NCBI GenBank assembly: GCA_030272155.1
Contig: CP126195.1
Location: 2,153,001-2,217,000 of the forward strand
DNA from: Tetradesmus obliquus
Taxonomy: Eukaryota > Chlorophyta > Chlorophyceae > Sphaeropleales > Scenedesmaceae
DNA length: 64,000 nt
Reading direction: 5' to 3'
Of this stretch, positions 1-62,692 are shown one piece after another. Position 1 is the stretch's first letter, and each line of letters begins with the position of its first letter. The notes beneath the pieces are model-generated. The model saw only the letters and a program-made list of their open reading frames with translations. It ran no database searches and was not told where the DNA came from. A program made the translations under genes and the position numbers.

Positions 1-549
1 AGGTGTGCTCAGCCAGCACCAGGATGTCGGCAGGCGCATCTGCAGCAACAGACCCAGGAGTTTTTGGCTGAAGAAAGTATTGGTGTGATGAGCATCAACA
101 TGTGTTTTCAGCCAGCACCAGGATGTCGGCAGGCGCATCTGCAACATGTACAAAGCAAGCAACAGTCCCAGGATCTTCAAAAAGACGCAGCAGATATTGA
201 TTGCTTGTACAGAGAGCAATGACAGGTGGTTGCATGCAGGTGAAATGCAGGCTGCGCCACGTTGATCTACATGATATGGTGTGACACATATGCACAGCCG
301 TCACATGCTCCTGCTAGGATGGTGATGTGGCCCAGACAGCTGCCGCAGTTATCATCCTAAAACTGCAACACCCAACACCTTGAAGATGGACTCCCCAGTG
401 CACGCACCTGCACGTGTGTTGGCTGTGATGCGTCCTGTCCTGATGTCTAGTGCTGCTTCTCCCAGCACCACAGTCCAGTCAGCCTGGATGCGCTTGCCTG
501 AGACAGCGCCTGCAGGGGGACCGCCTGCTGCAGCAGCAGCAACAGCAGC

Positions 550-589
<40 letters not shown>

Positions 590-959
590 GTGCAAGGGCA
601 TCATCAGCTACAGCAGCAGCATGCACCAACAACATCACTGCAGCAGTTGCAGAGGTGGGGCTGTCCAGGCAAGCATGGTCGTGCTGAGTTTGCAGGAACA
701 TGCACAGGGGCGTGCTGCATGCTGAGCTGCAGCCGCAGCACTGGCACTGCTACCAGTCTGCTGCACACGGGTGTGGTCAATTGCCACAGAAAACTGCACA
801 CAACGAGATGACCAACAACGTCCTGGCAGCTGCTCGCAACACAATCAGCACTGCTACTCAGTGATGGGCTACTGCCACAACACATCCGGGCACAATGCAG
901 CATAACACAACCCAGGCCCTGCGGCAGCCTGACCCCTGCAGGCACATGGGCCACACAAA

Positions 960-998
<39 letters not shown>

Positions 999-2319
999 TT
1001 GCTGCCACTCGCTGCTGCCAGATTGCTGTACTTGTACGCCACGAGCTCCAGCCCTGCAGTTGAGGTGATGAAGCTGTCTGATGCTGCTGCGTATGCCAGC
1101 GGCCCAGGCAGCAGGAAGCTAGGCAGGAAGCGGCTAAAGGCCATAGCCTCCTGCTCAAAAAAGGTGAGCTGGCCATCATATGACTGCACCACAATGTGTT
1201 CTACACCTGCACATGACACATGGGCAGGACAGGGCGGACAGGGCCCATGTTGCTGCTGCAAAGCAAGCACCAGAGGCTCAGGCTCAAAGAAGGTGAGCTG
1301 GCCATCATATGACTGCACCATGATATGCTCCATGCTTGCGCAAGCATAGCGCAAGCGGCACAGGGCAGTCAGGAAAACTCATTGCACATGGTGCACTGTT
1401 GCGACATAGCAGGTTTCTGAAGTCTGTAGAAGACTGGAACAGCTGCTGCCATGTATCCCTTGCTCACCAGCAATGCCCCCGAAAGGCCCTGTAGCCATAT
1501 TGGCTGCTGTGTGCTCCAGATAGTGCTCGTAGATCTTGCTGTGCTGCAGGTAGCTGCTGCCGACTGCCTGCAGGGCGTACACTGCCAGCTTGCGTGGGTG
1601 CAGCACAGCCAGGCAGATGCTGCTGCTCCTGCAGGAACCAGTGCCAGTGCCAGGGAGCAGGGCAGCAGGCAGCAGGCGCAGTTGCTGAGCCCAGTCGCAC
1701 TGTCTTGGCAGAGCTTCCTGCTCAAACATTGTAGGTTTGGCAATACGCATGCTGCAGGCCATGTAACACCCTGGAACTATAATTGCTGTTGCTGAGGCAG
1801 TACACTTGCCGCAGCGGTACATACAACCACAGCTGCCACGCCTGCTGAAAGCACCGCTTGAAATGTCATGCAGATATCTCTAACTTGTTGATAGAATCTC
1901 AATATAATGTTGCGGCTACCATCAGCAGATGCGCTTGCAGGGTGGCCCTATTGGCCCAGTACCAGGCTCACCCCAGAAAGTTTCCTGCAGCCAGCTGCAG
2001 TATGCTGCCCTCGAGTTCTGTCTCCAGCAGCATATCCTCAACATGATAGCCACGCTGGTGCGGCAGGTGCACGCGCAGCACACCCTGCAGGCTGCCTGTG
2101 ATGACTTTGGCTGCAGAGCAGAACATGGCAGCAAAACAGTGGTGATGCTCTGGCACCTTGAACGCTGTGCGGCAGCCCTGCTGGGTGAATATTGCAGCGT
2201 AACTCACCGTTTCCATTGGGATCGTTGTCTATGTTTGCTATTGCGATGCTACCCTGGTCGAACTCTTCTGCTGTACCTAGCCTGGTGGACCACCACTCCC
2301 TGCTGCTGAACAGGGACAT
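1..2319 (-). CDS. BBS9: BBS9 (PTHB1), BBSome subunit, 5' part only
   Basis: BBS9 is a core subunit of the BBSome, the coat-like complex that carries membrane proteins through cilia with IFT trains. The protein opens MSLFSSREWWSTRLG at 2319, followed by EEFDQGSIAIANID, the family's characteristic start. Later conserved blocks are YEHYLEHTAANM, the FGGIAG turn, SRFLPSFLLPGPLAY and ADWTVVLGEAALDI, all from the N-terminal beta-propeller. Exons that keep frame across GT/AG junctions are 2319-2208, 2110-1972, 1628-1468, 1206-961, 509-408 and 39-1, where the gene leaves the window. Exon 4 ends in an in-frame poly-Gln run fed by a CAG tract directly before the donor. Exon 4 and the last exon each have an upstream decoy copy of their 5' edge. 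Assignment rests on recalled similarity to animal PTHB1 in collinear order, and I consider it secure. Confidence 0.9.
39..150 (-). repeat. Decoy 5' edge of BBS9 exon 6
   Basis: The exon start encoding ADAPADILVLAE occurs twice, each time directly after a TGCAG acceptor. The copy starting at 39 runs off the window in frame. The copy starting at 138 soon reaches a stop codon. The latter is therefore the decoy, lying about 100 bp upstream of the true exon in gene sense. Confidence 0.75.
528..590. repeat. CAG/CTG trinucleotide tract in BBS9 intron 4
   Basis: An interrupted then pure CAG run lies just before the acceptor of BBS9 exon 5. In gene sense it reads (CTG)n followed by a CTGCAG acceptor. 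It therefore sits where a polypyrimidine tract would normally be. Confidence 0.85.
1283..1333 (-). repeat. Decoy 5' edge of BBS9 exon 4
   Basis: About 50 bp encoding EHIMVQSYDGQLTFFE is a near copy of the true exon start EHIVVQSYDGQLTFFE at 1206-1156. It lies upstream in the preceding intron. Similarity stops inside the exon, so only the edge is duplicated. Confidence 0.8.
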
Positions 2320-3131: not shown

Positions 3132-3136
3132 TTACA
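3132..3136 (-). terminator. Candidate TGTAA poly(A) signal of the aldose epimerase gene
   Basis: TGTAA on the minus strand lies about 115 bp beyond the epimerase stop codon. TGTAA is the usual green-algal polyadenylation signal. The assignment is inferred from position and motif only. Confidence 0.4.
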
Positions 3137-3248: not shown

Positions 3249-3875
3249 TCAAGGTGCTGCACCACCACCACCCGCAGCTGCATTGCCTGCTGTCGCATTC
3301 TGCACCACCGTCACATTGCCTCCAGCCACATCAGGTGCAACCACCACTGCAGGCGTGGCATTCTCCGGCACAGTGGCATTCGCCACAACTGGGGCAGTGG
3401 TGTTGTCCAACCCTATCTCCGTAGCACTCCCGACAATCGGACCAGCAGCAGGCGCTGCAGTGGCATTGGCAGCAGATGCCGTTGCATTGCCTGCTGTAGC
3501 ATTGCCAGCAGCAGGCACCTCAGTAGCGTTGGCAGCAGGCGTCGATGCATTCGCTGCCGTCTCGTTGCCAGTCGCAGCCGCCCCAGTGGCATTTGCAGCA
3601 GGCGCCGTCGCATTTGTTGCCGTGCCATTGCCTGCCGTTGCATTGCCACCCTGCACTCCAAACTCCCACACCAGCTGCTGCTCGTAGATCTGGCCAGGGT
3701 TCACAATGACGCTCGGGAAGTTAGGGTTTTGCACCGCATTTGGCCAGCCCTGGGGTTCAACGGCAAAACCGCCGCGCCTGGTGTACTGCACGCCTCCCTT
3801 GCCAGTGATCTGCGGCTCTCCTGGGCCTGGCAGATGGTTGCCGCTGTACCACTGGAAGCCTGCAGCGGCAGCAGC

Positions 3876-3911
<36 letters not shown>

Positions 3912-9900: not shown

Positions 9901-11953
9901 CCAGCAGGCGATGACATGATCACTTTTATGAAGCAGGCACCTGCTTTGGTGGCCGCTTTTGTGCACTGCTGCTATCTGATGCGGTGTCACCCGGACACTG
10001 ATCCTGAGGTCCTTCTGTCCTCTCAGGCTATTGCTCAAGCTATTGATGATGCTGATGAGTTTTTTTCTGCGTTTTCGTCTGACGGTTTGGACGATGATGA
10101 GTTGTTCTTCGATGTTTCCTCCCCCTATGAGCCTCTCGTTGGCTCCTGACTGGGGTTCCCACTCCTCGTTGAGTGGAGCATGTAATGTAATGTAATGTAT
10201 GAAAAAGGAGACTGGCACAGGCAGTGGCAAGACAGCAGGATCGCAGCGTTACGTGCAAAAGAGTTGCCAGCAACCATAAAGTGCCAAGGCAATTGGTGCT
10301 GACTGAGCAGGCTCAAGTGCCAAAGCAGGTCAGTAATCTAGAGGCCAGCAGCCGCCAGCAGTGATACCAAGCGGCAGCAGAGACAGCCAGTGTCATCCTT
10401 GTGAGTCAAGCAGCATGGCGCGTCCCACCACCCAGCAATAATAACTGTTGCCACTGTCGTGAGGCCATGCACAGCGCAACATGACACGGCACTATCTCAC
10501 CGCTTCAACAATGAGGCACAGCTGCATGTAATGTAATGTAATGTATTGTATTGTAATGTAATGTAATGTAATGTAATGTATGCACGGTTATGGTCACTGG
10601 GCGCATGCATGTCTGTGGTGTCCACGGCTGCCAGACACATGCTGCACCGTGCAGCTGCCCCCACACTGCGGCATGCATGCTGCATGCTGCATGCTGCTGC
10701 TGCAGCGCACTCACTGGGTGTGGGCCTGTCTGTGGTTGCCAGCCAGGTAGTGTGCAGCTGCCAGCACTGCCAGCACTGCTACTAGGTTGATGATCAAGCA
10801 GCAACACCTAGCATGTCCTGTGAGCATCATGCAGCGCGACAGCGTTACCTGCACAGCAACACAGGCTGCTGCCTCTGTCATAATGCCATGCACCACGCGA
10901 CACGACATGGCACTGTCGCGCCGCTCCAACCTGTTGAACACATCACTCACAGCGGAACACAGCTGCCGCCAAGCAATACTCACTGGGTGTGGGCCTGTCT
11001 GTGGTGGCCAGCCAGGTGGTCTGCAGCCTGTTGGTGTCGTTCCACAGCTTGTAGATCACCCAGGCATGCACAGTGCCGGGGAAGCCCTGCAGCATGAAAA
11101 AGGCAGCATATGATCTAGATCAGACTACCAGCAGCAGCTGTCAGCACGGTGTACAAGCAAGGTAAGCCCTGCAGGCGCGCGCGGCAGCAACTAAAAGCAT
11201 CATGTGCAGCAACTAAAAGCATCATGTGCAGCAACTAAAAGCATCATGTGCAGCAACTAAAAGCATCATGTGCAGCAACTAAAAGCATCATGTGCAGCTC
11301 AGACAGCAGCAGCACCTTCAGAATACCAACCAGTCTGACAAACACTGAATGTGATATCATAGTGAACAAAACATCAGTAAGTTGGCAGCTGCCGGAGGGC
11401 TGACCTGGTCCCCATCAGGGCTGAGTACGTGCAGCACCGCCGCCTCCCCGTCAATCTGTCCCAGATTAATTCACTTGCATAGCAAGCCTGAGGCCTTGCA
11501 GAACCCCTTTCCACCTGACCTCAACAGCGCACTCTCACCTGGTCTCCATCAGGGCTGAGCAGGTGCAGCACCGCCGCCTCCCCGTCAACCAGCTCCACCT
11601 TGCGCGCATCCCACACCCGGCTGGTGAAGCCACCGGCACCACCTGGCCAGCAGCAGCAGCAGCAGCAACCGTTTTTACAATGCCAGTGTTGAAGATGCTT
11701 TGACAACCTTGTAAGTTTGCAGAGCAAATGACAAGCGTGTTAAGCACAGGAACAAGCGCTCACTGCACGTCGTAACCCTCACCATGGATGGTGTCATTGA
11801 GTGTAGGTGTGGTGCTGTTGAGGCCGGGGACTGGGATCCTGTCGTTGACGCTGGTGCTGTAGGTGACGCCATCAAGCGTGAAGTTGGCGCCAGGGATGCG
11901 GTTGGACACGCGCCCGATGACGGCCCCCAGGTACGGGTTGGGATCCAGCGTCT

Positions 11954-12046: not shown

Positions 12047-13719
12047 GCAGCAGCAGCAGCAGCGGCATCAGCAGTAGCAGCAGTTGGTTGAAGCTCTCAC
12101 GGTAGCCCAAGCATGGCACCGCGCCATAGTACACACTATGCCTGGCAGCAATGTTACAGCTCAGCTTTGGCACTGCTGCTGCCAGCGCTAAGCCACTGGG
12201 TGCCAGGTTTGAGCATGCCCTGGCAGCCCACACAAGCGTTGCTGATTTGGTGTGATAGGCGTCTTACAGGCTGCTGCTGATGTGCCAGGCCTTACCAGAT
12301 ACTCAGTGGCAGTGTCCATGCCAAGGGCAACATCCACACCATTACCGTCCCTGCAGGCGATGACAGCAGCAGGCAAACATATTTCTCACACTGGTGCAAT
12401 TACCATGACCAGAATGCTGCCTGGGGCGCGAGCAAGCACTGGAGCTGATGCATTGCGCTGTGATGTCGGTAGCACGGATGCGGTGCCCACCAATGCAGCT
12501 TCCTGCAAACCATCTGGAACTTCCACGCATCCTTGCGTTTGAAACACGCAACCTTTCAAAACCCCAGCCCCAGAGCAACATATGCATAGCAGCTGCCTTC
12601 AGTCTTTACGTAATACCCAGATGCACATACACTGTATGTCATAATGGCACCGTGACAACCAGCTCACTTGTCCGGCACGATCAGCCGCTGGATGATGGCC
12701 CCCAGCGGCAGCACCACCACGCTCATGCCCTTGCTGCTTTGCGTGAGTAGCACGCGTGCGGCGTTCACAATGCAGCTCATCTGCCAAGTGTCTGGTATGC
12801 ATGCATCCCTCTACACCCTCAGCTGGTGCGCACACAGCTCTAGGGTATGTCATGCACAGCCGTTGCTTTTACTCTTTACAGGCAGCCCAAATGCACACAC
12901 ACCAGCCGGCTCACTTGTCTGGCACGATCAGCCGCTGGATGATGGCCCCCAGCGGCAGCACCACCTCTAGGACAAGCCATGTACAACAGCTTTTACTGTT
13001 CACATATCGTTCATATGCACACACATCAGTCGGCTCACCTGTCCGGCATGATCAGCCGCTGGATGATGGCTCCCATATTCATGCATCATCATGATGCAGC
13101 GTCCTGTAGCTGAGGCTGTGTATTGACACTGTGCAAGTTGCACAGTGCGAACACACAGCCTCAGCTACAGGACGATCCATGAGCAGCAGTTGAGTTGTTG
13201 TTTCCATATAACCCAAATGCAACCGACACACCAGCCAGCTCACTTGTCTGGCACGATCAGCCGCTGGATGATGGCCCCCAGCGGCAGCACCACCACACTC
13301 ATGCCCTTGCTGTTGCGCAGCGTGATGTACTCGGCCAGCGCATCCGTGCCATTGCTGCTGCCATTTGCACTGGCATTGCTGCTGCCGTTGACACCAGCCA
13401 GCTGTCCTACCCACGGCTGCGGTACAGGGACAGCGCTGGCATTGCTGCTGCTGCCAGTGGCATTAGCTTCGGGTGAAGGCTGGATGCTTGTCACATTCAC
13501 AGGGGGAGCTGGGCTACTGGTGGTATCTGCTGCAGCAGGATTGGATTCGTTGCCTGCCGGGCTTGCAGGTGGCAGCACTACAGTGGTGATGTTGGTGCTG
13601 CTGCTGTTGAGGGCGGCCAGTGCTCCAGGCAGAGCAGGTGCCTCTGCCTGGCCTGCAGCAAGCCTGAGCAGAATGCAGCTGGCACAAAGAACAGCTACTG
13701 CAAGCGAAGACCTCGGCAT
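3249..13719 (-). CDS. GALM: Secreted aldose 1-epimerase with sequon-rich extensions
   Basis: Aldose 1-epimerase (mutarotase) interconverts the alpha and beta anomers of sugars such as glucose and galactose. Exons in frame are 13719-13244, 12350-12296, 11951-11783, 11642-11539, 11086-10984, 5627-5425, 5179-5085, about 4480-4307, and 3859-3249. Family blocks occur in order: YLGAVIGRVSNRI, GGFTSRVWDARKVEL with LLSPDG, FPGTVHAWVIYKL, THAYFNLNGH with the catalytic His, PTGEIAPVAGTPFD, and FAVEPQGWPNAV with the catalytic Glu, then NPNFPS. A signal-peptide-like start precedes about 10 N-X-S/T sequons, and the tail after the fold carries about 15 more. The predicted product is roughly twice the usual 340 residues. 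It is probably periplasmic, vacuolar or extracellular. One intron has a GC donor and another carries a retrotransposon. Family is certain; the start of exon 8 is approximate. Confidence 0.9.
4765..5048. repeat. (GTGCAT)n hexanucleotide satellite in an epimerase intron
   Basis: About 284 bp consists of GTGCAT repeats with one phase change near 4840. Every step alternates purine and pyrimidine. It lies in the intron between exons 7 and 8 of the epimerase gene. The long Met-His or Cys-Thr reading frames through it are artefacts of the repeat. Confidence 0.97.
5313..5380 (-). repeat. Decoy 3' edge of epimerase exon 6
   Basis: A diverged copy of the exon end at 5425-5490 is followed by a GTATGG donor-like site, as the real exon end is followed by GTGCGG. 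It lies downstream of the true exon in gene sense, inside the intron. Confidence 0.7.
5621..5780. repeat. Tandem intron repeat around the epimerase exon 6 acceptor
   Basis: Two related units of about 75 bp share GGAGACTG, GTGGCAAG and AACCAT(G/A)...GTGC blocks. A third related unit lies at 10208-10290, on the far side of the retrotransposon. The array probably existed before the insertion and was split by it. Confidence 0.55.
5785..6120 (+). CDS. C-terminal fragment of retrotransposon ORF1-like protein
   Basis: An open frame without an obvious own start continues from about 5785 to a stop at 6120, with the first ATG at 5812. It encodes LTDSALRGALFSVAKQL, then a charged stretch, then RGLKPYWDFGTCTFG. 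It lies directly upstream of ORF2 on the same strand and is GC-rich like a coding region. I read it as the end of the element's ORF1, truncated with the element. I recognise no domain. It could instead be captured host sequence. Confidence 0.5.
   Translation, partial: ADSSKESYQMLVVTLTDSALRGALFSVAKQLKEVYKITFTTEWTREEKEARRRIEASPAFQRALKQASNRGLKPYWDFGTCTFGRRTADSTVWSVDYLNKLVDGGEQVVVQ
6157..10149 (+). CDS. Retrotransposon ORF2: endonuclease and reverse transcriptase
   Basis: The frame is open for 1330 codons; the first in-frame ATG is at 6247. An apurinic-type endonuclease domain comes first, with LNICFWNADVLSP, LIACVYFPP, LFGDFNAHT and a late SDHNML motif. The reverse transcriptase follows: GRMPGPDGL, VFKKGDPSDLDNYRGI, ACFVDFRKAYD, GVKQGDPLSPLLF and the catalytic LLLYADDLVLL. 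A cysteine-histidine cluster near the C-terminus, CLRPGCQS then EFHMVFECPF, matches the zinc-binding tail of many LINE ORF2 proteins. There is no internal stop or frameshift, so the copy is young and may be active if a complete sister element supplies ORF1. Product: target-primed reverse transcription machinery. Confidence 0.93.
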   Translation: MSRSVSNSAVDENLTVSSDDEDGYSENVRRMAARGVTRAACERPLNICFWNADVLSPSKLAQVSQRCSNFWMFDVVLMVEVGREELPDVFPGFQTFSGLPRVNRSERGAGKGQGMLALVKQKWAQRCSVVKRSEYVMWLRVDCPGRVSLFIACVYFPPLVSVEWQQLGAEAWQAAYSDLQADIAAYQALGEVCLFGDFNAHTSTADDSGSAAQQLLDSMGVLAGQVAPVALRQRRNTDQRPVCNFGEQLLALCAATNSVILNGRTAGDPTGAATFQSAQSAAVNGCPGSSSGAKRAKKRAVSKSVIDYGVVSRTLLPRVDNFAVVSSGGLSDHNMLVCALSVPEPPVEELQPFADLPFVRCIRWDPCKRTQYVRALEADACVSKREAALQRLSAPTATTEQVFDACEAWCDAIRQAAEPIFGVSGNGRCKRAQDGRVAKRWFVHCKQEWAALRAAVRSQNSHAAAAARRVFNAAKRRAKRHCEKQWQARLADDLKHNPRRFWTAYRGRRMACMLQDMSAVDRHWRALYGSPGQHSLPEEGASPTSFMAKLLSQCQDGPAVAAASHLNDPFSAGEMETVLLRMHNGRMPGPDGLRGELFKGAYNVYVTSRGYKKHLYVLHEDLSAIFTAVMKCGQVPGVWCSAYLSAVFKKGDPSDLDNYRGIAVGSVMGKMFSMLIEKRLAAYCEERGYRAWGQAGFRDRHRTCDHVFVLKHLVDRSRLGHGRLFACFVDFRKAYDLVRRDLLMRCLADIGLRGNVLASIVSMYWNAPMITKLSGRVGQPFDSTRGVKQGDPLSPLLFGIFIDRVEQWLADRCGACGTALGSRMVRLLLYADDLVLLAETAGKLQQLLDALQSFCSEYDMQVNVGKTEVVVFDRKRYSGAAVWQYQGQQVPVSQQFRYLGVQFHSTQGVFVCTDALAAAGSRAMWAMLARCKEHGIRSLSMQVQLFNSLVSPILCYCSEVWGPALLSQAGSGAALVSKLQNNVISRVHFTFLRTLAGRVRKSTARLLLSREFGAQPLVSLWLRAAVSMWNRVVDMDASSLLVCAMRDNLRLSTVSSSGAVWCTQLRRVLEYVYAHSQQLGDAVQRLQNFQSLDLKTIARAFDGVLYQQWQGCPVNPRDAASGHGVYSTYERWFAACSSADMLSVSPALWCPDYVSQTAGINREHLGSLTRFRLGAHDLRVCSGRWQRPPVPRSDRVCLRPGCQSEVVEDEFHMVFECPFYAPVRERFAMLFEPFGDSSQTWATIAGCHPAGDDMITFMKQAPALVAAFVHCCYLMRCHPDTDPEVLLSSQAIAQAIDDADEFFSAFSSDGLDDDELFFDVSSPYEPLVGS
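10180..10200 (+). repeat. (TGTAA)n tail of the LINE
   Basis: Three to four TGTAA units follow the ORF2 stop by about 35 bp. Many LINEs carry a short tandem repeat at their 3' end. These units also match the algal poly(A) signal. Confidence 0.7.
10526..10580 (+). repeat. Second, longer (TGTAA)n array
   Basis: About eleven TGTAA/TGTAT units lie 330 bp beyond the first tail, in the same epimerase intron and the same orientation. The array may be the 3' remnant of another, almost fully truncated insertion of the same family. A plain microsatellite is the alternative. Confidence 0.7.
10715..10757 (-). repeat. Decoy 3' edge of epimerase exon 5
   Basis: The last 40 or so bases of exon 5 (10984-11030), including the GTGAGT donor, are repeated here in the following intron with few differences. 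Confidence 0.8.
11184..11297. repeat. Five-unit 22-bp minisatellite
   Basis: Five perfect units, each containing CAACTAAAAGCATCATG, lie in epimerase intron 4 between exons 4 and 5. Perfect identity suggests recent expansion. Confidence 0.97.
11401..11456 (-). repeat. Decoy 3' edge of epimerase exon 4
   Basis: About 55 bp repeats the end of exon 4 at 11539-11600 and keeps a CAG/GT junction. It lies downstream of the true exon in the intron. Confidence 0.8.
11953..12078. repeat. Long CAG/CTG tract before epimerase exon 3
   Basis: More than thirty near-perfect CAG units lie on the + strand, read as CTG in gene sense. They end directly at the CTGCAG acceptor of exon 3 (11951). The tract is intronic and stands in for a polypyrimidine tract. 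Confidence 0.95.
12668..13073 (-). repeat. Three decoy 3' edges of epimerase exon 1
   Basis: Copies of the exon 1 end, encoding LGAIIQRLIVPDK plus a GTGAGC donor, lie at 13073-13039, 12965-12915 and 12742-12668. The true edge is 13310-13244. All copies have the same phase at the donor. Copy lengths differ, and the longest extends into the preceding codons VVVLP. Confidence 0.9.
13100..13174. other. 75-bp near-perfect hairpin
   Basis: Arms 13100-13121 and 13153-13174 are perfect 22-bp reverse complements. Between them a second perfect 10-bp inverted repeat (13127-13136 and 13138-13147) sits around a single base. The whole can fold into one long stem. It lies in epimerase intron 1 between exon 1 and its first decoy. 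A small-RNA precursor or a MITE remnant are both possible. Confidence 0.8.
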
Positions 13720-17099: not shown

Positions 17100-17545
17100 A
17101 CAAACAAGCACTCAGTTGCGCTGCGCGTTGGCCTTGAGCACTGCCAGCGCCGCCGCAGCCCCAGATAGCATCCTGACTGCCTCCTACAACCACATGCACA
17201 CACACCAGCTGTGCACAACTGCGCCCTCGAATGCCGATTCGGCTGCGCTGCGCATTGGCCGTGAGCACTGCCAGCGCTGCATCCTCCGCCCCAAGCAGCC
17301 CTGACTGCCTGCCAAACCAAGAGCACACACACCAGCTCGGTACAACTTGCTTCGCATTCAGCTGCGCTGCGCGTTGGCCTTCAGCACTGCCAGCGCCGCG
17401 TCCTCAGCCCCTATTAGCCCTGACTGCCAGCCAAAACCACATGCACACACACCAGCTCGGCACAACTTGCTTCGCATTCAGCTGTGCTGCGCCTTGGCCT
17501 TCAGCATTGCCAGCGCCGCCTCTTCAGCCGCAAGCAGCTTCTTAA
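17100..17545 (-). repeat. Four tandem copies of the EMC3 C-terminal coding segment
   Basis: Units at a spacing of about 117-130 bp each re-encode the end of EMC3 (GAEDAALAVLKANAQRS and stop, with variations). They are followed by a CA-rich spacer containing CACACACCAGCT. They lie directly after the true stop codon at 17608. Some copies have lost the stop or changed the frame. Confidence 0.9.
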
Positions 17546-17607
17546 TTGCCTCCCACAACCAGATGCACACACACCAGCTGTACACAATTACGCCCTCAAA
17601 AGCCGAT

Positions 17608-18984
17608 TCAGCTGCGCTGCGCGTTGGCTTTTAGCACTGCCAGCGCTGCATCTTCAGCCCCCAGCAGCGTCCACTCGTGCTCGCCTGCGCCCCAGCCCTG
17701 CAGCTCCGTCTTGAACGCCGCCTTCGCGTCGAACCCTGCGCCGCCGGCCATGGGGTTCATCTGCCTCTTCATCATCTCCGTCTCGTCCAGCGTGTTCTCC
17801 CTGAACACTAGGCTGAAAGGGCCTCGGCTTGCAAACAGCAGCGCAAAGTAGTAGGAGAGGCTGGTGAAGTAAGAGACGTCGAGTGAGGACAGGTCCACGC
17901 CGCGCTGCAGCATGGGCCGGAAGCGAGGGGACAGCCCGAAGGGCACCTTGCCCATCACGAAGCCGGAGAAGAAGAAGGACACGGCGGCGCCCATCACAAT
18001 CTGCGGCAGCATGCCTGCAAGGATAGATGAGAGAGGAAGCCAGCGGTGACAATGCGGTGGTGGCGGAGGTGGCAAGGGTTAGCAGTGGCTGCGCACTACA
18101 GGCAAGCAAGATTGGGTGGGGGTAGGGGAGGGTTGGGTGGGGTGAGCAAAATCAGCTACGTGCATGCTCATGTATGCAAGGATTCAGGCACCATATCGAT
18201 AGGAATAGTCCGAAGGGCACCTTGACCATCACATGGCGCCAGTGGTCTGTTGCTGCATGAAAGTTGACTCTCACCCGTGAGGTTCTTCTTCATCATGTCA
18301 ACCATGAAGGAGGGGTCGGTGGCCATGGTCTCGTGCATAGGCCGCGTGCACGGCTCCTTGTTGAACACGCCGCTCTCCTTTTCAGTGAAAAACTCCCTGC
18401 AGCAGCGGCAACGGCGCAGCAGCAGCAGTTCAATGCGTACAGGCCCTGGTCACTGCTGTCGGCAGCTGTGCAGCTTCAGGGCATTCGGGTACGCAGGGGT
18501 AGCCGGCTGGCGTCATCAGGCGAGCTTAATATTTGCAGCGCAAGACGTGCATCAGCAGGAGACATCCCATGGCAAATGCACTGCTGACAGCTGCACACTG
18601 CTGGCACAGCGCTGGCAGCAGGTGCTGCTGAACAAGCATAGGAAGCTGGGGCTGCTGTTCTCCTGCAACTGCCGCACTGCACTCCAGCGCACAATAGCGG
18701 CAGCAGCACACATGCTCAATCATATCAATCTTCACACCCCGAACTCACTTGCGCATGCGGAAGGCGCTCTCAGGGAGCCAGTTGGCTGCTGCGCGAATGC
18801 GCTGGCTGCGTGTCACGCCCTGCTGCTCCTGGATCTCCGCCAGCACCTTGGTGGTGACGGGTGCTGCTGATGTCATCTGGTGTGCGTACTGCATCAGCAG
18901 CTTCATAAGCACGATGAACAGCGTGAGAGGGATGAACACCCAGTCGCGCACATTGCTGTCTAGCACGAGCTCGTGGTAGCCCAT
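17608..18984 (-). CDS. EMC3: EMC3, ER membrane protein complex subunit 3
   Basis: EMC3 is the Oxa1/YidC-type insertase subunit of the ER membrane complex, which inserts tail-anchored and some multispan proteins. Exons are 18984-18749, 18396-18275 and 18014-17608, joined in frame. Exon 1 gives MGYHELVLDSNVRDWV and the first membrane segment. Exon 2 gives FFTEKESGVFNKEP and DPSFMVDMMKKNLTG. Exon 3 gives the central membrane block with FFFSGFVMGKVPFGL and RFRPMLQRGVDLSSLDVSY, then RENTLDE and a conserved ending AFKTELQGWGAGEHEW. Length, about 254 residues, matches the family. A scrap of exon 3 lies in intron 2, and the C-terminal segment is repeated after the stop. The upstream interval is shared with a + strand gene. 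Confidence 0.95.
18188..18235 (-). repeat. Decoy fragment of EMC3 exon 3 in intron 2
   Basis: The stretch encodes VMVKVPFGLF and copies VMGKVPFGLS of exon 3 (near 17955). It lies in the intron upstream of that exon. Here an internal piece, not the exact edge, is kept. Confidence 0.65.
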
Positions 18985-46839: not shown

Positions 46840-47029
46840 TGCTATATGCAAACTCTCTGTCAACAGCACATACATGCTGCTCGACTGCCTGCTGCTGCTG
46901 CTGCTGCCGCTGAAGCATCAGCAACCCAATTATTGTGGCACCGCCGCGCCCTTAGCCACTCACAGCCATTCCACTCAATGGCATCCACACGCCTATGCAT
47001 GCCCTCCGCCCCTTGAGACACCTGCCGTC

Positions 47030-47580
47030 GCCGCTGCTGCTGCTGCTGCTGGTGCACTGCCAGCCCCAGCGCTGTGCCCTCCATCACTTGCCGCGCCCCA
47101 TCAGGCAAAACCCTCCCCAGCATAAGACACCTGCGAGCGCTGCTGCTGCTGCTGCTGCTGCTGCATCGCCACCCACCGCGCTGCGCCCTCCATCGCCAGC
47201 GCAGCTACATCAGGCAAACCCTCCCCCGCCTACGACACATGCTGCCGCTGCTGCTGCTGCTGCTGCGGGTGCACTGCCAACCCACGCGCTGCGCCCTCCA
47301 TCACCCGCCGCGCCCCATCAGGCAGAACCCCCTCGCTCCGCCTGCCTAAGAAACCTGCTGGCGCTGCTGCTGCTGGTGCTGCTGCTGCTGCTGGTGCTGC
47401 TGCTGGTGCTGGTGCACCGCCAGCCTCAGCACAGCCTCCATCACCCGCGCAGCCACATCAGGCAAAATCCTCCTCCGCCTGAGACACCTGCGGGCGCTGC
47501 TGCTGCTGCTGTTGCTGCATCGCCAGCCCCCGCGCTGTGTCCTACAGCACCCGCTGCGCCCTATCAGCCACAACCCCCTC
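47030..47580 (-). repeat. Five or six tandem copies of the bZIP C-terminal segment
   Basis: Units of about 105-130 bp encode variants of LPDGARRVMEGAARVG(S/L)A followed by a CAG/CTG run and AGGCG. They resemble the true end DRAQRAMEGAARGLAVHQQQ at 47680-47600. They extend from the stop codon (47589) about 550 bp into the 3' flank. Confidence 0.88.
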
Positions 47581-47588
47581 CCCCACGC

Positions 47589-49017: not shown

Positions 49018-51584
49018 GCAGCAGCACCAGGCCATGCAGCAGCACCCCCACCACCTGCCGCTGCATGTGCTGCTGCAGCTGCAGCTGCCGCAGCGCCCTT
49101 CTCCTGTTGCACTGCCACCAGCTCGTCGCTCAGCTCCTTGACAAACAGCCTGAAGTGCTGCACAATGTCTGCCACTGACATCTCCTTGATGAGCTCAGGA
49201 CAGCTTTTTGCGCGCTGCGCTGAAGGGCTGCCTGCATCTGCATGATGCCCCTTCCCAGCACTGCTGGAGCTGTGGTAATCCCCAGCAGCGGTTATGCCAG
49301 AGATGCCAGACCCTGCTGCAGCAGCGGCAGTGTGGCCGCTGCTGTCCATGCTGCTGGCTGGCGCTGCTGCTGCAGCAGCAGCAGCGACTTCGGGCACGGG
49401 TGCTGCTAAGTCATGCAGCTCCTGCAAGCTCCTGCAGCGCCTCGACAGCGCTGCTGGCTCCGCTGCTGCTGCTGCTGCTGCTGCTTGGTGGCCAGACTGT
49501 GGCAGCGCCAAGCTGCCTGTGCCTTCAAATGACTCATGAAATTGATGGTGGTGGTGGTGGTATGGGTCCTCTGACAGAGCCAGGGAGCTTGCAGAGTCAT
49601 ACACGGGCGGGCCATGCTCGCGCGTCACCTGCACCTGTGTGTTGAAGCCGCGCAGAGAAGCAAGCAGAGCATGCACTGCTGTGTCAGAGCTGTATCGCAG
49701 CAGTCTTGCAATCACTCCACCAGCAGGGCATGGCCTCACATAGGCACGGCAGCCATGTGTGCTTGTGAGACAGACAGCACTCCCAGCAGCTGCTGCCACC
49801 CCAACATGATCCCACTGCTGCTTGCAGGACAGCTGCTGCTTGCAGGACAGCCACCGACCGCTTGCAGGACTCATGGGACATGCAATACGAACCTTGTGTA
49901 AAGCAGTCGCCGGCTTCAACATCAAACAGCACAGGATGCTTGCAGAGCAAACGGCAGCAGCAGCGCTCAGCGCAACCTCACCGCATACTCCCGGCTCGCC
50001 ACTGTTGACTCCAGCACGCTCGCGCGCAGCTTCAGCATCTCATTCTCTGCAGCCAGCAGCTGCAGCTGGCCCAGCTTGCCTTCTAGCTCTGCTTCTAAGC
50101 CCGCCATGAGGCCACGCTGCCGCTGCCTGTGGTGGCAGTACACAGTGGTACGAAATCATGAGTCGTGTTACAAGAAAAATGAGCAGCTGCAGCTGGCCCA
50201 GATTGTCTTCCAACTCAGCCTCCAGGCCAGCCATCAGGCCGCGCTGTCGCTGCCTGCAGGAAAGTCAAATGTGAGTCATCTTACACTGATACCTGATGAT
50301 TACGCTAGAGCAGGTGGGGCGAAAGTTATTGAAGAGTCATTAGTACGCTGGAGGCAGCAACCTATTCTTGATAGAATGGCCAACGGATGGCGTGGCCACA
50401 CTTCTCAACTGTTGCCCCATCCCCAACCCCACCACAGCGTGCTTATCAGACGCAACAAGCTAATGCATCGCGACAAGCTAATGCATCGCGAAGGGATTTG
50501 CAGCTGCATGTAGTCTTAAAGACATAAGGGAGCTGCAGGCATACGTGCTTCACATGTCCTGCAAAGCCCTGCTGCCTGCCCGCCTCACCCACCTGTAGCG
50601 CCGCGATGCATCACCAGACTTTGTGAGCGGCTTGCCAGTAGCTGCAGACACGTTGCCGCCGTGCTTGCCGCTGCCACTGCTGCTGCGTGGCTTGCTGCGC
50701 TTCTCAGCAGCAGGGCCAACACCAGATCCAGCAGCAGCAGATGCCGCAGGTGCTGTGCTGCTGAAGTGTACGTGCACTGGCGGCGGAGACGCTACAAGCT
50801 GCGGGTGCAGCAGCTGCCCAGGTTGCGGCATGCTGCCAAAGGCCAGCGGTGCTGGTGCGCCAGGGGCGCCAAATCCAGCAGTGGTTGCTGCCGGGGAGGC
50901 TGGCAGTGGGAACTGCTGGCTCTGCTGGTGCTGGTGCTGCTGCATGAGCTGCTGCGGCAGCATGTGCGCCAGTGGCAGCTGCTGAAGTTGTTGCTGTTGC
51001 TGCCGCTGCTGCTGCTGCTGTTGTTGTTGCTGCTGTTGTTGCTCCAACAGCAGCTGAAATGACAGCTGCTGCTGCTGTTGCTGTTGCTGCAGCGGCAGCA
51101 ACAGCTGCGGCTGAGGCTGCACCTGCTGCGGTTCCTGCAGCAGGGGCATGCTCAGGCCCAGGCCCAAGTTTGACTCGTGTGCCTGCTGCAAAACACCAGC
51201 TGCTGGAGGCTGACTTGCAGCGAACAGCAGCTGCTGCTGTTGCTGAAACATCATCAGCTCCTGGTTCAGGCCATACTGGGGCATCCCAAGATTAGCTGCA
51301 TGCGCTGCTGCTTGGTTGCTGTTCCCCTGCTGCTGCCAGGCACCAGGTAGAGAGAGAAACGCGCCCGCTGGCGCAGTAGAAGCCTCCATAGTACTCATGA
51401 AGTCATGAAGTTGATTGCCAGCACCCCACGTAGCGACTTCGACCTGGTTACGTGATGTAATGTAATCCGCCTGCGGGAACACCACCCCTAAGGACCCCGC
51501 CAGTTCTGCGTCATGCGGAAAGGAGAACGCTCCGGGTCCACTTTGCACAAGACCCAACCAGCTGCTACCACCCGGGATGTCCAT
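47589..51584 (-). CDS. bZIP-type transcription factor with long disordered regions
   Basis: Exon 1 (51584-50593) starts MDIPGGSSWLGLV, is Gln/Ala/Pro-rich and ends with the basic stretch TKSGDASRRYR. Exon 2 (50126-49982) continues in frame as QRQRGLMAGLEAELEGKLG then LLAAENEMLKLRASVLES. This is a basic region with a leucine zipper, of the algal form A..RYR.RQ rather than the canonical N..AA..SR. Exon 3 (49634-48875) holds KSCPELIKEMSVADIVQHFR and YMFRLAATLNP. An exon around 48600-48449 gives LPALAAAYCQLFGRNLETG, and the last (48056-47589) gives TACAELYFPAVHQLQAERVT. The helical C-terminal half presumably serves protein interaction. The junction between exons 3 and 4 is unresolved. It is the nuclear regulator candidate of the window. 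Confidence 0.75.
50185..50253 (-). repeat. Decoy 5' edge of the bZIP exon 2
   Basis: A CTGCAG acceptor is followed by sequence encoding QRQRGLMAGLEAELEDNLGQ, nearly identical to the true exon start at 50126. It lies upstream in the intron. Similarity stops at the middle of the zipper. Confidence 0.92.
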
Positions 51585-52344: not shown

Positions 52345-54927
52345 TCAGCGCCTGTCAGCGCCAATCAGCAGCTCCAGCAGGGTCGGGCACAGCGTGCTGG
52401 GTGCAGGCAGCACATGCGACGGCGCATCAAACAGCTGCGCCACTGCTGCCTTCACCGCAGCCTCCGCTGCAGCAGCGCCAGCCGCACCGCCTGCTGCTGC
52501 TGCTGCCGGCGGCTGCTCAAACTTGCCAAACATCGCCTCAAGTGCTGACTCATCGCCCCCTGCTGCCAGCTCAGCTTCCATCGCTGCTCTTGTGCCAGAC
52601 GGCACTGCGGCATCACCTGCTGCTGCTGCTGCTGCCGCATCGCTGCTGCCAGCTTCTGCTGCTGCACTTGCTGGTATGAGCCGCGTGTACCGCCTGTCAT
52701 CTGTTAGAACCAGCAACTGTGACATGCGCTGCTGCTGCTGGGTGGCGGCTGCACCCTTGCTGCTGCTGCTGCTGCTGCTGTGTAAGAACAGCAGGCTACC
52801 AGGGCTGCTGTCTGGCACTGCTGCAGCAAACAGTGGTGAAGGGTTTGCTGGGCTAAACACCACAACCAGCCCTTGCTGCTTGACACCCTGCTGCTGCTTG
52901 TCTGCTTCCTGCTGCTGCTGCTGCTGCTTTTGCTGCTTCCCACCCCCCTGCTGCTGGTGTTGCTGGTCTTGCTGCTCAGCAGCAGCACTGCCGTCTGCTG
53001 CTGCACCTGCTGCGCTGCTGCTGCTGCTGCTGCTGGCTAGCGCTGGCACGCCTACTGCAAACAGTGGATAAGCAGGGTCTACAGCTAAGCTGCACACCGG
53101 CAGGTTGCAGTACCAGCTGACAGCACCATTCAGCAAGTCCCACACAACTACACTGCTGCCCCAGCTGCCCTGTGCCTGATCCTGCTGCTGCTGCTGAGCG
53201 CTACCATCTGCTGCTGCTGCTGCTGCCGCTGGATCGCCGCCGCCAACCAGCCCGACTAGGTGTGGGCTGTTGTGCACAAACTTCAGCTGCCGCAAGCTAC
53301 CGCCGCTGCTGCTGCATTCTGCAGGGCACACCAGCGTCCCCACCAGTGCATTCTCATATGGATCCCATAAAGTAGCTGTAGCGCCAGCTGCTACAGCCAG
53401 CAGGGACCCATCCTGGCTGAAGCTACAGCCGTTCAAACCTAAACTCTTATACCCTCCCACTGCACTGCAGCGCCAGTGCCGTGCCGGCTCTGCTGCAGCC
53501 TCACTGCTGCTGCTGCTGGGCTTGTGCTGTGCAGCAGCAGCTTTGCTACGCTGCCATACCTTGAACTCGCCTTCGCTGCCGGTAGTAACAGCCATATGCT
53601 GAGTAGGGTGGCAGCACAGGCCAGTGACGACGCCCCTGTGTGGCGCATCAGCGCTGGTGTTCAGGGAGTAAGGCACGCCGCTGCTAGCCACCTGGCTGCT
53701 GCTGCTGCAGTCCCAGAACCGCAACGTGGACTCCGCTGCTGCTGCTGCTGCTGTGCTGTGTAAGCCGCCTGTAGCTGGCCGCACATCCACTGTGATAAGG
53801 GACTGGCCATCGCCTGTGAATGCTTGCAGGACAACTGCCTGAGTGAGCTGTGCTGCTGCCGCGCCTGCTGCTGCCGCTGCTGCGTGGTTGCTTGCTGCCT
53901 CGGTGAGGCTCACAGGGTTGCGAGGTGACACCTGTGAGCCCGGAGGAAAAGCAGCAGCATTTCAGGTAAGTCCAGGGGTGCATTGATGTTTTGACCAAGG
54001 CGGGTGTGACATATCGTGCGTCTGACCTGCAAAGGCAGTGGTGTGATATGTGCGGGTATAAGACACTGCTGGAAGCATGAGACGCCAGCGACACCTGCAA
54101 TCACCGGTACTCACGCCCACAAACAAGGTACTGCAGCACACACATATACAATCAGCATCCCAGACTAGAGGCCCACACCGCCCTCACCTGCAGCCGCGCC
54201 ACATGCCTGTCCCTCGCCACGTCAAAGAACCGCAGGTTGGCGTGCTCAGCAGGCAGCACCAAGTCCCCGCTGCCAGGCTGCAGCACCACCCCAGCAGGGC
54301 TGCTGGCGGCTGCCGCACACCATCCAACAAACACCTTGCAAGCACCCCATCCACATGAAGAATGACGCCATAACAAGTACAGATCTCACATCAACTCCAC
54401 GGTCTTGAGAAACCCAAAACCGCCCCTACCTGCAGCCGCGCCACATGCCGGTCCCTCGCCACATCAAAGAACTGCAGGTTGGCATGCTCAGCCGGCAGCA
54501 CCAAATGCCCACTGCCCGGCTGCAGCACCACCCCTGCAGGGCTGCTGGCGGCTGCGCTGCAGCAGCAGCCGTAGCCGGCGGCTGCCAGTGCTGCTGCTGC
54601 TGGCGGCGGCCGCAGCCCGTGGATTGAGAGCTCCACTGACATGGCTGCTGTGTTCACCAGCCGCACTGTGTTGTCTGACTGGGCAACGAAGAACCTGTCG
54701 CGATACAAGATGACAGTTTCCAAAAGACAGAGCAGTCAGGCACAGCATGTTAGCAGCAGCTCGTGTGACTTGGAAGCAAAAGTGCATGCAGGTCGGCTGA
54801 CAGTCCAACGAAGGATTCACGCTTGCTGCTCTACAGCCAACCACAACATCAAAGACAGCCGCACAGGACATGTCATCAAAGCACAGTTTCACCATCCAGA
54901 CAGGGTTCCATGCATTATTTGAACGAG

Positions 54928-54986
<59 letters not shown>

Positions 54987-58617: not shown

Positions 58618-59694
58618 TTAGCCCACTGAGCCCTCCAGCTTGAGGTTCATGAGCTCATTCACCTCTGCCGCAAACTCCAGCGGCAGCTCGTTGAAGACCT
58701 CCCTGCAGAAGCCTGAGATGATCATGCCCACGGCCGCCTCCGCTGCCACGCCGCGCTGCTGGAAGTAGAAGAGCTGGTCCTCGCCGATCTTGCTGGTGGA
58801 CGCCTCGTGCTCCACAACAGCAGACGGCTCGCGCACCTACGCAATATGGTGAGGACAGAGTTTATCTGCGCAATGTGACGGGACCGTCAAGGTGCACACG
58901 CCGTGGCCAACAGAACAAGGCATGCTGGCAGCAGTGCGAACTGGGAGCCGCATGCTATGAGCACCTGGCTGCCGCTGCTTCTGCTGCTGCTGCTGCTGCT
59001 GTTGTATGTGCAAATTCCCTGTGCAAGTGCCGCCTGCCTGCCAGCCAGCCGCCGCACCTGGATGTATGGGTAGGTGTTTGCGCCGGCGTTGTCGCCAATG
59101 AGCATGCTGTCGCACTGGCTGTGGTTGCGCGCACCCTTGGCGCTCGGCTGCACCTGCGGCAGCAACAACAGAAGCGTGCCTTACAGGCTGTCAGCAGCAG
59201 CGAATATGAAGGGTGTCTGGCCATCGCCAGAGCACCAGTGCCTGAAACGTACTTGGAATGAACTGCGCACGGGCATGCGCCACTACACACAGACTGTAAA
59301 GCACACAACATCTGCAGGCGTGCAGACACCACAATGCCGCACCTGCACCAGGCCCTTGTACGCATTGACGCTGTTGCCGGCGCTGATGCTCTTGGACAGA
59401 ATGCGGCTTCAAAACCTATGTCTCATACCCTGCACGAGCTGACCCAAACTGCTGCGCAACTCGACGCAGGTGTCCATACTGCGCTAACTCAAGGCACATG
59501 CTTGACAACACAGCTACTCAGCCCCAAAAATCAGCAGGCGCACGCGAATCCTTCAAGGCGCACGCGAATCCTTCAAGGAAAAAAAACAAACAACTTGCGC
59601 AACGCGCACCTGCACCAGCCCCCTGTATGCGTTCACGCTGTTGCCGGCGCTGATGCCCTTGCTGACAATCCTGCTGCGCGTGTTCTTGCCCACA

Positions 59695-59726
<32 letters not shown>

Positions 59727-60910
59727 CATGTTGTTGGTGAGCGCGACGCTGAAGAACTCGCCCACGCTGCCGTCGCCCTTGAGCACCACGCTCGGGTACT
59801 TCCAGGTGATGGCGGAGCCGGTCTCCACCTGCAGCACATTTGTAACATAACTGTAACACTGTAACATTGTAACGTGATCTGAACGAACAAAGACATGCGA
59901 TGCCCTTCAGCACCACGTTGGGGCACTTCCAGGTGATGGCACTGCCCATCTCCACCTGCAGCAGGTATTGCAGTTGTAAACAGCTACACTGAATCATGCC
60001 AACGACAACAACGACAACCAAGGTATTGCTCCTCCAGTGAAATCCAAATGAATCGGCTGATGGCTGCTGCTGTTCAACTGCTTGCTGCTTGTATGCGTCA
60101 ATACCAGCAGCCACACTGCGCCCACCTGCGTCCAGCTGATCTTTGAGTTGTCGCCGTGGCACAGCCCGCGCTTGGTCACAAAGTTGTAGATGCCGCCGCG
60201 GCCCTCCGCATCACCAGCATACCAGTTCTGCACCGTGCTGTACTTGATCTCTGCACCAGCGCCAGCTGACAGCTCCACCACAGCCGCATGAAGCTGGTTG
60301 CTGTCATATGCTGGAGCAGTGCAGCCCTCCAGGTATGACACATACGCCTCATCCTCTGCAATGATGAGTGTACGCTCAAACTGCAGGCAGAAAGATGTGG
60401 ATTGCAGCGCGGAAATGAAGCACCAGTGGCAGTGCTGTCAGCCATGAGGGTACACCTTGAAGGCAGCCACAACACAACTGATGCCATTATATAGCTAAAG
60501 AACAACATGCACTTGGCTTGCCAAACAACCTGCCGATCTTCCAGCTGTCACAGGATGCTGCTGCTGCAAGCCTGCATGCATCAAGCAGCTTATGAACCGG
60601 CCGACACCACCACCGCTGTTGCTGCTGCCGCTGCTGCCCCGCTGCTGCCTTCCTGCTGCCAATTACTGCCCTGCTGCTGCTGACTACTGCCCTGCTGCCG
60701 CTTTGGTGCTGCTCCTGCTGCTGCCCTGCTGTTGATTTGCACTGTCTCCACAGGCTGCACCTGGCCTGTCTTGCTGAAATTGATCGTGCTGCCCTGCCCC
60801 GCTACTGCTGCAGCCCAGCCGCACCTGCCCTACTGCTGCTGCCCTGCTGCTGCTGCTGCTCTGCACTGCCACAAGTGGCCGCACCTGACCGGTCTCGCCG
60901 ACTTTGATCA

Positions 60911-60970
<60 letters not shown>

Positions 60971-62692
60971 GTATTATCGCACCAGGCCGCACCTGGCCTG
61001 TCTCGCTGGCGTTGATCCTGCTGCCCTGCCCCACTGCTGCTGCCGCCCAGTCGCACCTGACCTACTGCTGCTGCCCTGCTGCTGCTGCTGCTCTACCCCG
61101 CCTATAACCGCCCGCACCTGTCCTGTCTCGCTGGCGTTGATCCTGAAGTACGTGGACAGCTCCATGGGGCTCTTCACGCCCTTGGGCACAAACACAAAGC
61201 TGCCGTCACTGAACACCGCGCTGTTCAGCGCAGCGTAGTAGTTGTCGGCAGCAGGCACCTGCAGAGCAGGTTGCAGCAGTAGATGCAGATGCAGCACAAA
61301 CTCAGCACAGCATGGTTGTCGGCAGCAGGCACCTGGTGAAGCAGAGTAACAGAACGTGCAGACGCAGCCGACAAAACCTCAGCGTGTGGAGTGGAGATGA
61401 GGCGATAGCTGGCACTGCACAGTCACTGTTGATGGCTGCTGCTGGACAGTGGAGTTGTGATGTGCCGGGCGGGTCGTTGCACCACAGCCCTGAGCTGAGC
61501 ACAGCAACATCTGCTGCTGCTGTTTGCTCTTCGCCAGCACACCCAGCGCTGCCTGCCGCTGCTGCTGCTGCCGTCGCTCAATGTCCTGCTTGGCATTGGT
61601 GCCGCCATTACTGCCACACAGAGTGGCTTAGCAAGCCTTGGTGGTCGACGCGTCATGCACACAACAAGGTCAATTATGCACGACTGCTGCATGCATGCAA
61701 AGAGTCTGCGTGACTCATAGCAGCAACGCTAATTGCCTGACTAGTGGACAGCCCTCAAGGACCCCTGGCGGGGGCACCGCGGCACGTCAGGCTACTCTTC
61801 TGGATTTAAAGATGTACCTGATGCTGCAGTGTGAATCGGGCAGCATGCACACACCCGCTGCATGTGCAGATCTCAACAAAACACAACCCCCCAAAACCAT
61901 GCATGCGACTATCTGCTGCTGCTGTTGCTGCTGCTGCGTTGCTGGCGCCCAGCACTTCCCGCCGCCCGTTTTCCTGCAAGCCCTGCTGCAGCAGTCGCTC
62001 ACCACGCTGCCCAGGTGCTTGCGGATCAGCTCAGGGTACTCCTTGACTGCTTCGCTGATGGAGCAGAAGATGACGCCTGCCTTGCCCAGCTCCTCCCTGA
62101 AGGTGGTGGCGATGGACACTGAGTCAAAGACAGCATCCACAGCCACGTTGGCCAGGCGCTTCTGCTCGTTGAGCGGGATGCCCAGCTTGTCGAAGGTACG
62201 CAGCAGCTCTGGATCAACCTCATCCAGGCTGGCCTTCTTCTCCTTCATCTTGGGGGCAGAGTAGTAGCTGAGGTCCTGGAAGTCGATGACCGGGTAGCGG
62301 TTGTCTGACCAGTGTGGCTCCTCCATGGTCAACCATTTCTTGAATGCGCGCAGCCTGAACTCCAGCATCCACTCTGGCTCGTTCTTCTTGGCCGAGATGG
62401 CTCGCACCACGTCCTCGTTCAAGCCCTTGGGGAAAGTGTCGCTCTCAATGAACGTTTTAAAGCCATACTTGTAAGGCCGGTTCATCATCTGCGAGAGCTG
62501 CTGCTTCTCGTCCAACTCGGGCTGCTGCTGCTGCAAGTCCACTGCAGCTGCTGGCTCCGTGCTGGCTGCTGCTTGCACTCGCAGGCGCTTCTGCGATCTG
62601 CATGATGCGATCCTGCCCCATGCATGCTGCTGCTTGGCACGCTGCTGGGCTACGGCAGGCCCCAGAGGCCTGCCTGTAAGCGAGTGTTGCAT
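58618..62692 (-). CDS. SUFB: SufB, plastid Fe-S cluster scaffold subunit
   Basis: SufB forms the SufBC2D scaffold that assembles Fe-S clusters in plastids. The first ATG (62692) starts a Gln/Arg/Ser-rich leader ending near [10 protein letters not shown], a plausible transit peptide. Exons 62692-62003, 61258-61118, 60380-60126, 59828-59610, 59153-59058 and 58836-58618 join in frame to roughly 540 residues. Motifs in order are [111 protein letters not shown] with the conserved Cys, and [12 protein letters not shown]. It ends in EGSVG. Introns carry decoys of four exon edges. Family assignment is certain and plastid location is inferred from the leader. Confidence 0.97.
59343..59408 (-). repeat. 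Decoy 3' edge of SufB exon 4
   Basis: The stretch encodes [20 protein letters not shown] with a GTGCGG donor. It copies the true exon end [20 protein letters not shown] at 59610-59675 and lies about 200 bp downstream in the intron. Confidence 0.93.
59902..59955 (-). repeat. Decoy 5' edge of SufB exon 4
   Basis: After a CTGCAG acceptor, [18 protein letters not shown] repeats the true exon start [18 protein letters not shown] at 59828. It lies upstream in the intron. Confidence 0.93.
60761..61022 (-). repeat. Three decoy 3' edges of SufB exon 2
   Basis: Copies of the exon end RINASETGQ plus a GTGCGG or GTGCAG donor lie at 61022-60993, 60909-60885 and 60786-60761. The true end is 61118. They decay with distance: RINASETGQ, then IKVGETGQ, then INFSKTGQ. 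The spacers between them (61021-61093 and 60789-60862) are also copies of each other. Confidence 0.9.
60912..60969. repeat. CTG tract in SufB intron 2
   Basis: About nineteen CTG units lie between two decoy exon ends. Confidence 0.95.
61311..61331 (-). repeat. Decoy 5' edge of SufB exon 2
   Basis: Twenty-one bases encoding VPAADNH follow CCAG, repeating the true start VPAADNYY at 61258. They lie about 70 bp upstream. Confidence 0.75.

Follow-up and report, generated by a model that had tools for sequence, protein, structure and literature searches.

How does the edge of an exon come to lie a second time in the neighbouring intron, with its splice site still attached? This question is raised by a stretch of 64,000 nucleotides from the green alga Tetradesmus obliquus (contig CP126195.1; C5:2153001-2217000), which we call the window. 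A preliminary description of its sequence had reported such duplications in BBS9, an aldose epimerase, PPCDC, a bZIP gene, WDR75, SufB and EMC3, and all of them were recovered when the window was compared with itself, although what is present in EMC3 takes the form of a ~120-bp tandem array. Exon-edge copying in T. obliquus is real and is also found outside the window. The new part is that the copies are not neutral scars; they look like coding sequence that was working until recently. Our survey combined the window with 20 stretches sampled elsewhere in a genome of 104.66 Mb in 17 contigs; 18 of the 20 were usable (244 of 264 kb), while the satellite mosaic L005 (C1:4500001-4510000) and the stretch L006, which consists entirely of N, were left out.

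Copies of exon edges in adjacent introns

Self-comparison of the window returned 48 non-self rows, with 37 lying within 4 kb and 26 remaining after a low-complexity filter. Direct orientation was found in 25 of these 26, as well as in every pair listed for the sampled stretches other than L005. In the window and the sampled stretches, the junction-copy blocks measure 35-137 nt, and a copied edge can have one to three copies. On the donor side, the blocks mostly stop at GT(G/A).., for example |GTGAG, and on the acceptor side they mostly open with.GCAG|, the intron side being mostly unrelated.

The direction of copying was read after removal of 13 overlapping tandem arrays from 84 pairs (leaving 71), of pairs longer than 150 nt or with more than three gaps (leaving 57), and of two pairs of TPR-like repeats in L004, which were also kept out of the codon-position counts and final substitution ratios; a coding score below 2 then set aside 11 of 55 pairs. 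A member of a pair was taken as the true edge if the 45 nt past the block edge were still coding in frame. Among the 44 pairs with an adequate coding score, 17 were exon ends copied downstream, 15 were exon starts copied upstream, one pointed the opposite way and 11 stayed untyped. Hence, the copies are placed outward in 32 of the 33 typable pairs, which come from 27 distinct true edges and uphold the two classes first described, and the sole opposite pair compares a copy with a copy. Typed pairs occurred in the window and in 8 of the 18 usable sampled stretches, so that the independent recurrence in unrelated genes extends beyond the window; pairs from one family are non-independent. The frame choice, the typing and the estimates of splice strength relied on the coding and splice scores of a home-made gene finder; because copies formed part of its training set, the splice scores do not give an independent measure of them. 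The finder's own models were rejected, having over-split genes and labelled copies as exons, and the WDR75 pair, untyped by scoring, was assigned to the donor type by hand for the codon-position and inner-splice-site tests.

In SufB, PurF (in the sampled stretch L019) and PPCDC, the true edges were set not by the gene finder but by proteins, namely P0001 (539 aa, intronless, source 'lgn'), P0121 and P0241, the last two being annotated T. obliquus models with a 99% match, not transcripts. With the 99th percentile of control introns as threshold, 15 of the 40 splice junctions of these genes (20 introns) are copied in the intron beside them, at 8 of 20 acceptor and 7 of 20 donor edges; two of the 15, the starts of SufB exon 2 and PurF exon 12, are supported by one near-threshold test window each. 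All 15 tracts start no more than 4 nt from the edge of the exon, so that no tract is confined to the exon interior. In non-adjacent introns of the same gene, only 6 of 525 test windows exceeded the threshold, a background level. Exon-start test windows matched the upstream intron in 14 of 39 cases versus 2 of 39 for the downstream one (Fisher p=0.0014), and exon-end windows the downstream intron in 8 of 23 versus 1 of 23 for the upstream one (Fisher p=0.022), both p values being approximate since the windows overlap; the wrong-direction matches belong to exons that are 67 and 78 nt long. Introns carrying copies are also longer in these genes, with a median of 640 versus 276.5 nt (p=0.005).

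In SufB, on the reverse strand, the true start of exon 4 (59775..59836), through which P0001 reads, is repeated 127 nt upstream at 59902..59963 with 85% identity, a retained CTGCAG|, three amino-acid replacements and an intron-side z of 4.4 in the masked test given below. The true end of the same exon (59605..59661, again by P0001) recurs 267 nt downstream at 59338..59394, with 89% identity, a retained CAG|GTGCG and a protein-level match reaching 59408. The end of exon 2 (RINASETGQ|) is repeated in intron 2 at 60692..61142 (Tandem Repeats Finder (TRF) period 232; tblastn 61019-60972); these repeats exceed the copy threshold, and the stretch is CAG-rich.

In PPCDC, on the forward strand, the true end of exon 3 (40252..40355; P0241, PDB 1e20) has a copy 256 nt downstream at 40508..40611, which is 97% identical and retains |GTGAG, the intron sides being unrelated. 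The true start of exon 4 (41089..41120 by P0241, the exon extending to ~41319) is preceded by a ladder of three copies: the first (VAPAMNTFK) at 41002..41028, 87 nt before the true edge, the second at 40906..40935, another 96 nt upstream, and the third at 40670..40700. The last step of 236 nt is due to a 135-bp dispersed element inserted in intron 3 at 40757-40891, between the second and third copies. This repeat, seen there and in L023-L030, is ~135 bp or longer and has at least 47 other genomic matches (40 of 455 candidates scored), with 92.8-97.1% identity among eight fetched copies and a varying 3' extent. A public T. obliquus PPCDC model of 110 aa, P0273, starts at an ATG adjoining the exon-end copy and reads L at a site that is F in the copy of the window; it is either a mis-prediction or a genuine alternative start.

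Of the 24 junctions of PurF, 9 have copies that pass the threshold, and at some edges there are two. Full function is contradicted for some of these copies: the copy of the exon 7 end has a nonsense codon, another carries a frameshifting 5-nt deletion and a third a 3-nt in-frame insertion; a copy in L020 likewise carries a stop. In P0234, a transcript-derived protein of a relative, the PurF open frame breaks off precisely where an exon ends (..KIK), as a retained intron would give. No copy-derived extra residues were found in P0001, P0121 or P0241, a result for three genes, two of them judged by annotated models. SufB and PurF each map to a single genomic place, and a paralogue or homeologue was therefore rejected as the source of their copies.

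Counting the closest typed copy per edge, the distance is 102-149 nt for 10 of 14 acceptors, while for donors it is 86-143 nt in 5 of 13 and 242-274 nt in another 5 of 13. By eye, neither half-distance copies for the 240-nt class nor an excess of distances divisible by three, as read-through would give, were found.

Coding signature of the copies

If the copies were neutral scars, as the preliminary description had offered among its possibilities, the ratio of nonsynonymous to synonymous substitution rates (dN/dS) against a constrained partner should lie near 0.45. This is not what was found. The ratio was 0.145 (confidence interval (CI) 0.106-0.196) over 39 pairs scoring above 5 for coding, in which true-copy and copy-copy pairs were pooled. 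It was 0.148 across the 32 typed true-copy pairs and, when each of the 27 true edges contributed a single pair, 0.167 (0.113-0.237). Copies compared with one another gave 0.146 (0.046-0.284; 7 pairs). For PurF the value was 0.070 (0.017-0.145; 8 pairs), with the misregistered exon 12 row left out, and this set was obtained partly by protein search, which favours conserved copies. A simulated neutral copy put through the same search gave 0.42-0.47, or 0.43-0.51 with coding-score filters, and simulated pairs with both copies constrained gave 0.08-0.10. As the neutral values barely shift under the filter, the low observed values are not created by it.

The same picture emerged from the codon positions. 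In 26 gap-free typed pairs with 488 codons, differences at positions 1, 2 and 3 numbered 21, 29 and 98, one stop was present, and the GC content at third positions (GC3) was 0.834 for the true edges against 0.826 for the copies, with 39 third-position differences from GC to AT and 35 from AT to GC. Donor scores were 6.36 for true edges and 5.54 for copies (17 pairs, GT in all), and acceptor scores 5.65 and 6.58, respectively (13 of 15 pairs with an AG found in both). Since the differences are mostly synonymous, coding composition is kept and splice strength is largely kept, the copies have probably not been neutral scars throughout the time since they diverged. Judged from the sequences, the two members appear to have acquired most of their differences at a time when each was under coding selection. 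The 16 of 57 pairs with a weak coding score have a dN/dS of 0.45, and many of them are wrong-frame or non-coding; a neutral subset among them is possible.

Where the copies end inside the exon, candidate splice sites did not rise above control level, the best acceptor having a mean percentile of 0.47 (18 pairs) and the best donor 0.49 (15 pairs). Complete mini-exons were rejected on this ground. The suggestion that the copies form a reservoir of cassette alternative exons lacks anatomical support as well, given the missing inner site and the three proteins free of copy-derived residues.

Origin of the copies

Local direct repeats, the outward rule, anchoring at junctions, longer introns and a weak homology of intron sides at group level are what was observed. 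The last was measured with all known blocks masked, and gave a mean score of 13.6 versus 9.8 for other introns (Wilcoxon p=0.0035); individually, z reached 2 or more in 7 of 31 pairs and one pair scored clearly below control. Copies can have whole units in common, for example 12830-12951 with 12958-13075 in the window and 3405-3590 with 3639-3833 in L019. We suggest, with a probability of about one half, that segments spanning a splice junction were recurrently duplicated in tandem, the copies being captured from, or exchanged with, functional edge sequence before they began to drift. Both the tandem route and the capture from functional sequence already diverged from the true edge are readings of this pattern.

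According to this proposal, introns would lengthen by repeated duplication, in place, of segments of ~90-270 bp across a junction. The copy attached to the exon body would stay exon and the other would be left behind in the intron, outward of the exon and with the splice site still attached, and further rounds could give ladders of the form E-E'-E''...S''-S'-S. The outward rule needs no other cause, because in a tandem duplication across a junction the member joined to the exon body remains exon. The source of the copies would most likely be divergent alleles, reached by unequal exchange between homologues in which exons are the sole well-matched sequence; such an exchange might bring about duplication and capture in one step, its reciprocal product losing the exon edge, and may explain why intron sides mostly cannot be aligned. 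Captured copies would then have drifted as passengers during the smaller part of their existence, with some now broken. Extensive heterozygosity of diploid T. obliquus is described in the accessible parts of two reports (PMC12636532 and PMC12899622, citing Biondi et al. 2024).

Several points weigh against this proposal. In 24 of 31 pairs, the 97%-identical PPCDC pair included, no individually clear intron homology was found, so that the case for a tandem origin is drawn mainly from geometry. An unmasked intron-side test (11 of 26) was inflated by neighbouring exon copies and was replaced by the masked one. Copy distances look bimodal, at ~85-150 and 205-275, and longer introns offer more space for chance matches. 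In addition, another T. obliquus contig has 6,749,178 bp where C5 has 6,747,500 bp; if it is the sister haplotype, little present divergence of C5 may exist.

A more tentative extension would treat exon edges and intronic copies as one recombining pool, in which unequal exchange shuttles edges within and between divergent haplotypes. Just as tentatively, introns might then keep a permanent stock of spare exon edges that are close to functional, and might lengthen by the same exchange.

Among the rival explanations, the one that survives best, though we consider it unlikely, is that the copies function as alternative edges of exons, spliced into part of the mRNAs and translated, with selection keeping frame and splice sites. 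The dN/dS of 0.145-0.167 between copy and true edge and of 0.146 between copies, the retained GC3 and the largely retained donor and acceptor scores are all what such edges would show, and P0273 might even start at one. However, P0273 is possibly a prediction error, the inner-end splice site is missing, the SufB, PurF and PPCDC proteins hold true edges only, and the broken copies of PurF and L020 are dead.

Still less probable in our judgement is a mutational process that targets splice junctions, linked for instance to R-loops, the spliceosome or chromatin, and copies edges outward, an idea already raised in the preliminary description. That all 15 tracts are anchored at junctions would fit it, as would the recurrence of distances of ~100-135 and an intron homology that is often undetectable even beside exon parts of 93-97% identity. 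Nevertheless, geometry and purifying selection dictate that copies lie outward and are anchored at the edge: duplications inside exons would be purged and old intron-only duplications would fade from sight. With the outward placement and much of the preference for junctions explained in this way, a process acting at junctions is not required.

Ordinary tandem duplications within one haplotype, decaying neutrally in the intron ever since, would account for direct, local and outward pairs, for the weak group-level intron homology, for a few broken copies and for the weak-scoring pairs with a dN/dS of 0.45. They are improbable, as such decay predicts a dN/dS of 0.42-0.51 under the same filters, against observed upper bounds of 0.20-0.24, and a fall in GC3, of which none was seen. 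An assembly artefact, in which pieces of the second haplotype were left beside the first at exons, the sole alignable parts, is more improbable again; the species can be a heterozygous diploid and the copies do resemble allelic exons, but several differing copies per edge, ladders with common intron units, the outward order and an assembly of 17 long contigs speak against it, and P0273, from another T. obliquus record, seems to hold the PPCDC copy. Introner-like or other dispersed elements bearing splice sites can practically be dismissed despite the 135-bp repeat in PPCDC intron 3, since five regions compared with the whole genome (aldose epimerase, PPCDC, PurF, SufB and a carrier-like gene in L022) gave, among the distant matches listed, only that element or CAG/CTG runs, while the junction copies turned up only locally.

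Further window genes, known systems and meaning

The remaining copies of the window lie on the reverse strand. The aldose epimerase, a family assignment supported by PDB 4rnl, has an exon with its true end at 13232..13317, where coding continues upstream, followed by three copies at 13021..13075 (87%), 12886..12965 (95%) and 12656..12743 (94%); the first two share a unit of ~128 bp that includes intron and is 78% identical. A later exon of this gene (true end 11534..11588, coding running upstream) has one copy 134 nt downstream at 11400..11454 (93%). Exon starts are copied upstream in BBS9 (true start 1141..1191, coding running downstream; copy 129 nt away at 1270..1320, 90%, masked intron-side z=2.4) and in the bZIP-like gene (true start 50055..50129 by coding extension; copy 127 nt away at 50182..50256, 84%, differences mainly at third positions, z=3.5). 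WDR75, homologous to human WDR75 (7mq8), has an exon with a true end at 54419..54555, where coding extends upstream weakly, and a copy 242 nt downstream at 54177..54313 (91%). An acceptor-type pair at 3..47 and 102-146 (93%, 99 nt apart) stays untyped, as the window ends there. The exon-end array of EMC3 occupies 17108..17668 (TRF 120 x 4.4, self-BLAST). The names BBS9, bZIP and EMC3 are taken from the preliminary description.

Other repeats are abundant in the window. CAG/CTG trinucleotide runs are extremely common in predicted coding frames (poly-Q/A) and introns, and tandem arrays include (CATGTG)n as well as 22-, 63- and ~108-bp units (4778-5057; 11184-11298; 3442-3632; 47002-47674). At 6121-10149 on the forward strand, an intact frame of 1342 aa looks by eye like a long interspersed nuclear element (LINE)-type non-long-terminal-repeat retrotransposon, with an endonuclease followed by a reverse transcriptase with YADD. 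Outside the window, L005 is a mosaic of near-identical repeats of up to ~1600 bp in both orientations with a lower GC content (49%), a satellite or transposon cluster.

The exon-edge copies resemble several known systems without matching any of them. Intronic minisatellites are direct tandem arrays, like the 120-bp array of EMC3; the units in the alga differ in being junction-anchored and in having an exon part that evolves as coding sequence. Tandem exon duplication with mutually exclusive exons yields neighbouring coding copies under protein-level constraint. The copies of the alga are coding-constrained neighbours as well, but they are exon edges with one splice site and not whole exons. 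Intron gain of the type named after Rogers reportedly starts from a duplication of an exonic AGGT. The tandem-duplication introns of Drosophila start within exons, as presented in the accessible part of the report (Lehmann et al. 2010, PMC2891723). As far as these accounts go, the likeness to both lies in tandem duplication that reuses splice signals, whereas those cases begin inside exons and add introns and the alga duplicates existing junctions and lengthens introns.

The closest case is potato RdRp, where a tandem duplication that runs across the boundary between intron and exon is read as intron gain (PMC4974935, 2016). Judging from the available portion of that paper, the duplication takes along the 3' splice site and the exon start, and the sequence between the copies becomes intron. 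The new intron is spliced out there and the duplicated exon sequence stays in the mRNA, whereas in the three checked genes of the alga the copy is wholly intronic; moreover, the alga, unlike potato RdRp as so described, has both acceptor and donor edges hit, ladders, and copies at 15 of 40 junctions examined. The earlier statement that copying across junctions had not been described was thus too strong, albeit in view of a case presented as intron gain. A genome-wide description of outward junction copies was not found in a literature search with thin coverage of subscription journals, which makes this weak evidence of absence.

Gene predictors can take the copies for exons, as our home-made finder did and the public PPCDC model appears to have done, and the annotations of T. 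obliquus and related algae therefore need checking. Intron length and its origin are open questions, and a large share of the junctions examined here appear to record growth by cross-junction duplication. As the true edge and its copies lie next to each other, rates and unit sizes are directly measurable, and so is what becomes of the spare splice sites. If it is true that the copies are captured functional alleles, the introns of this alga would retain traces of former alleles and of haplotype exchange.

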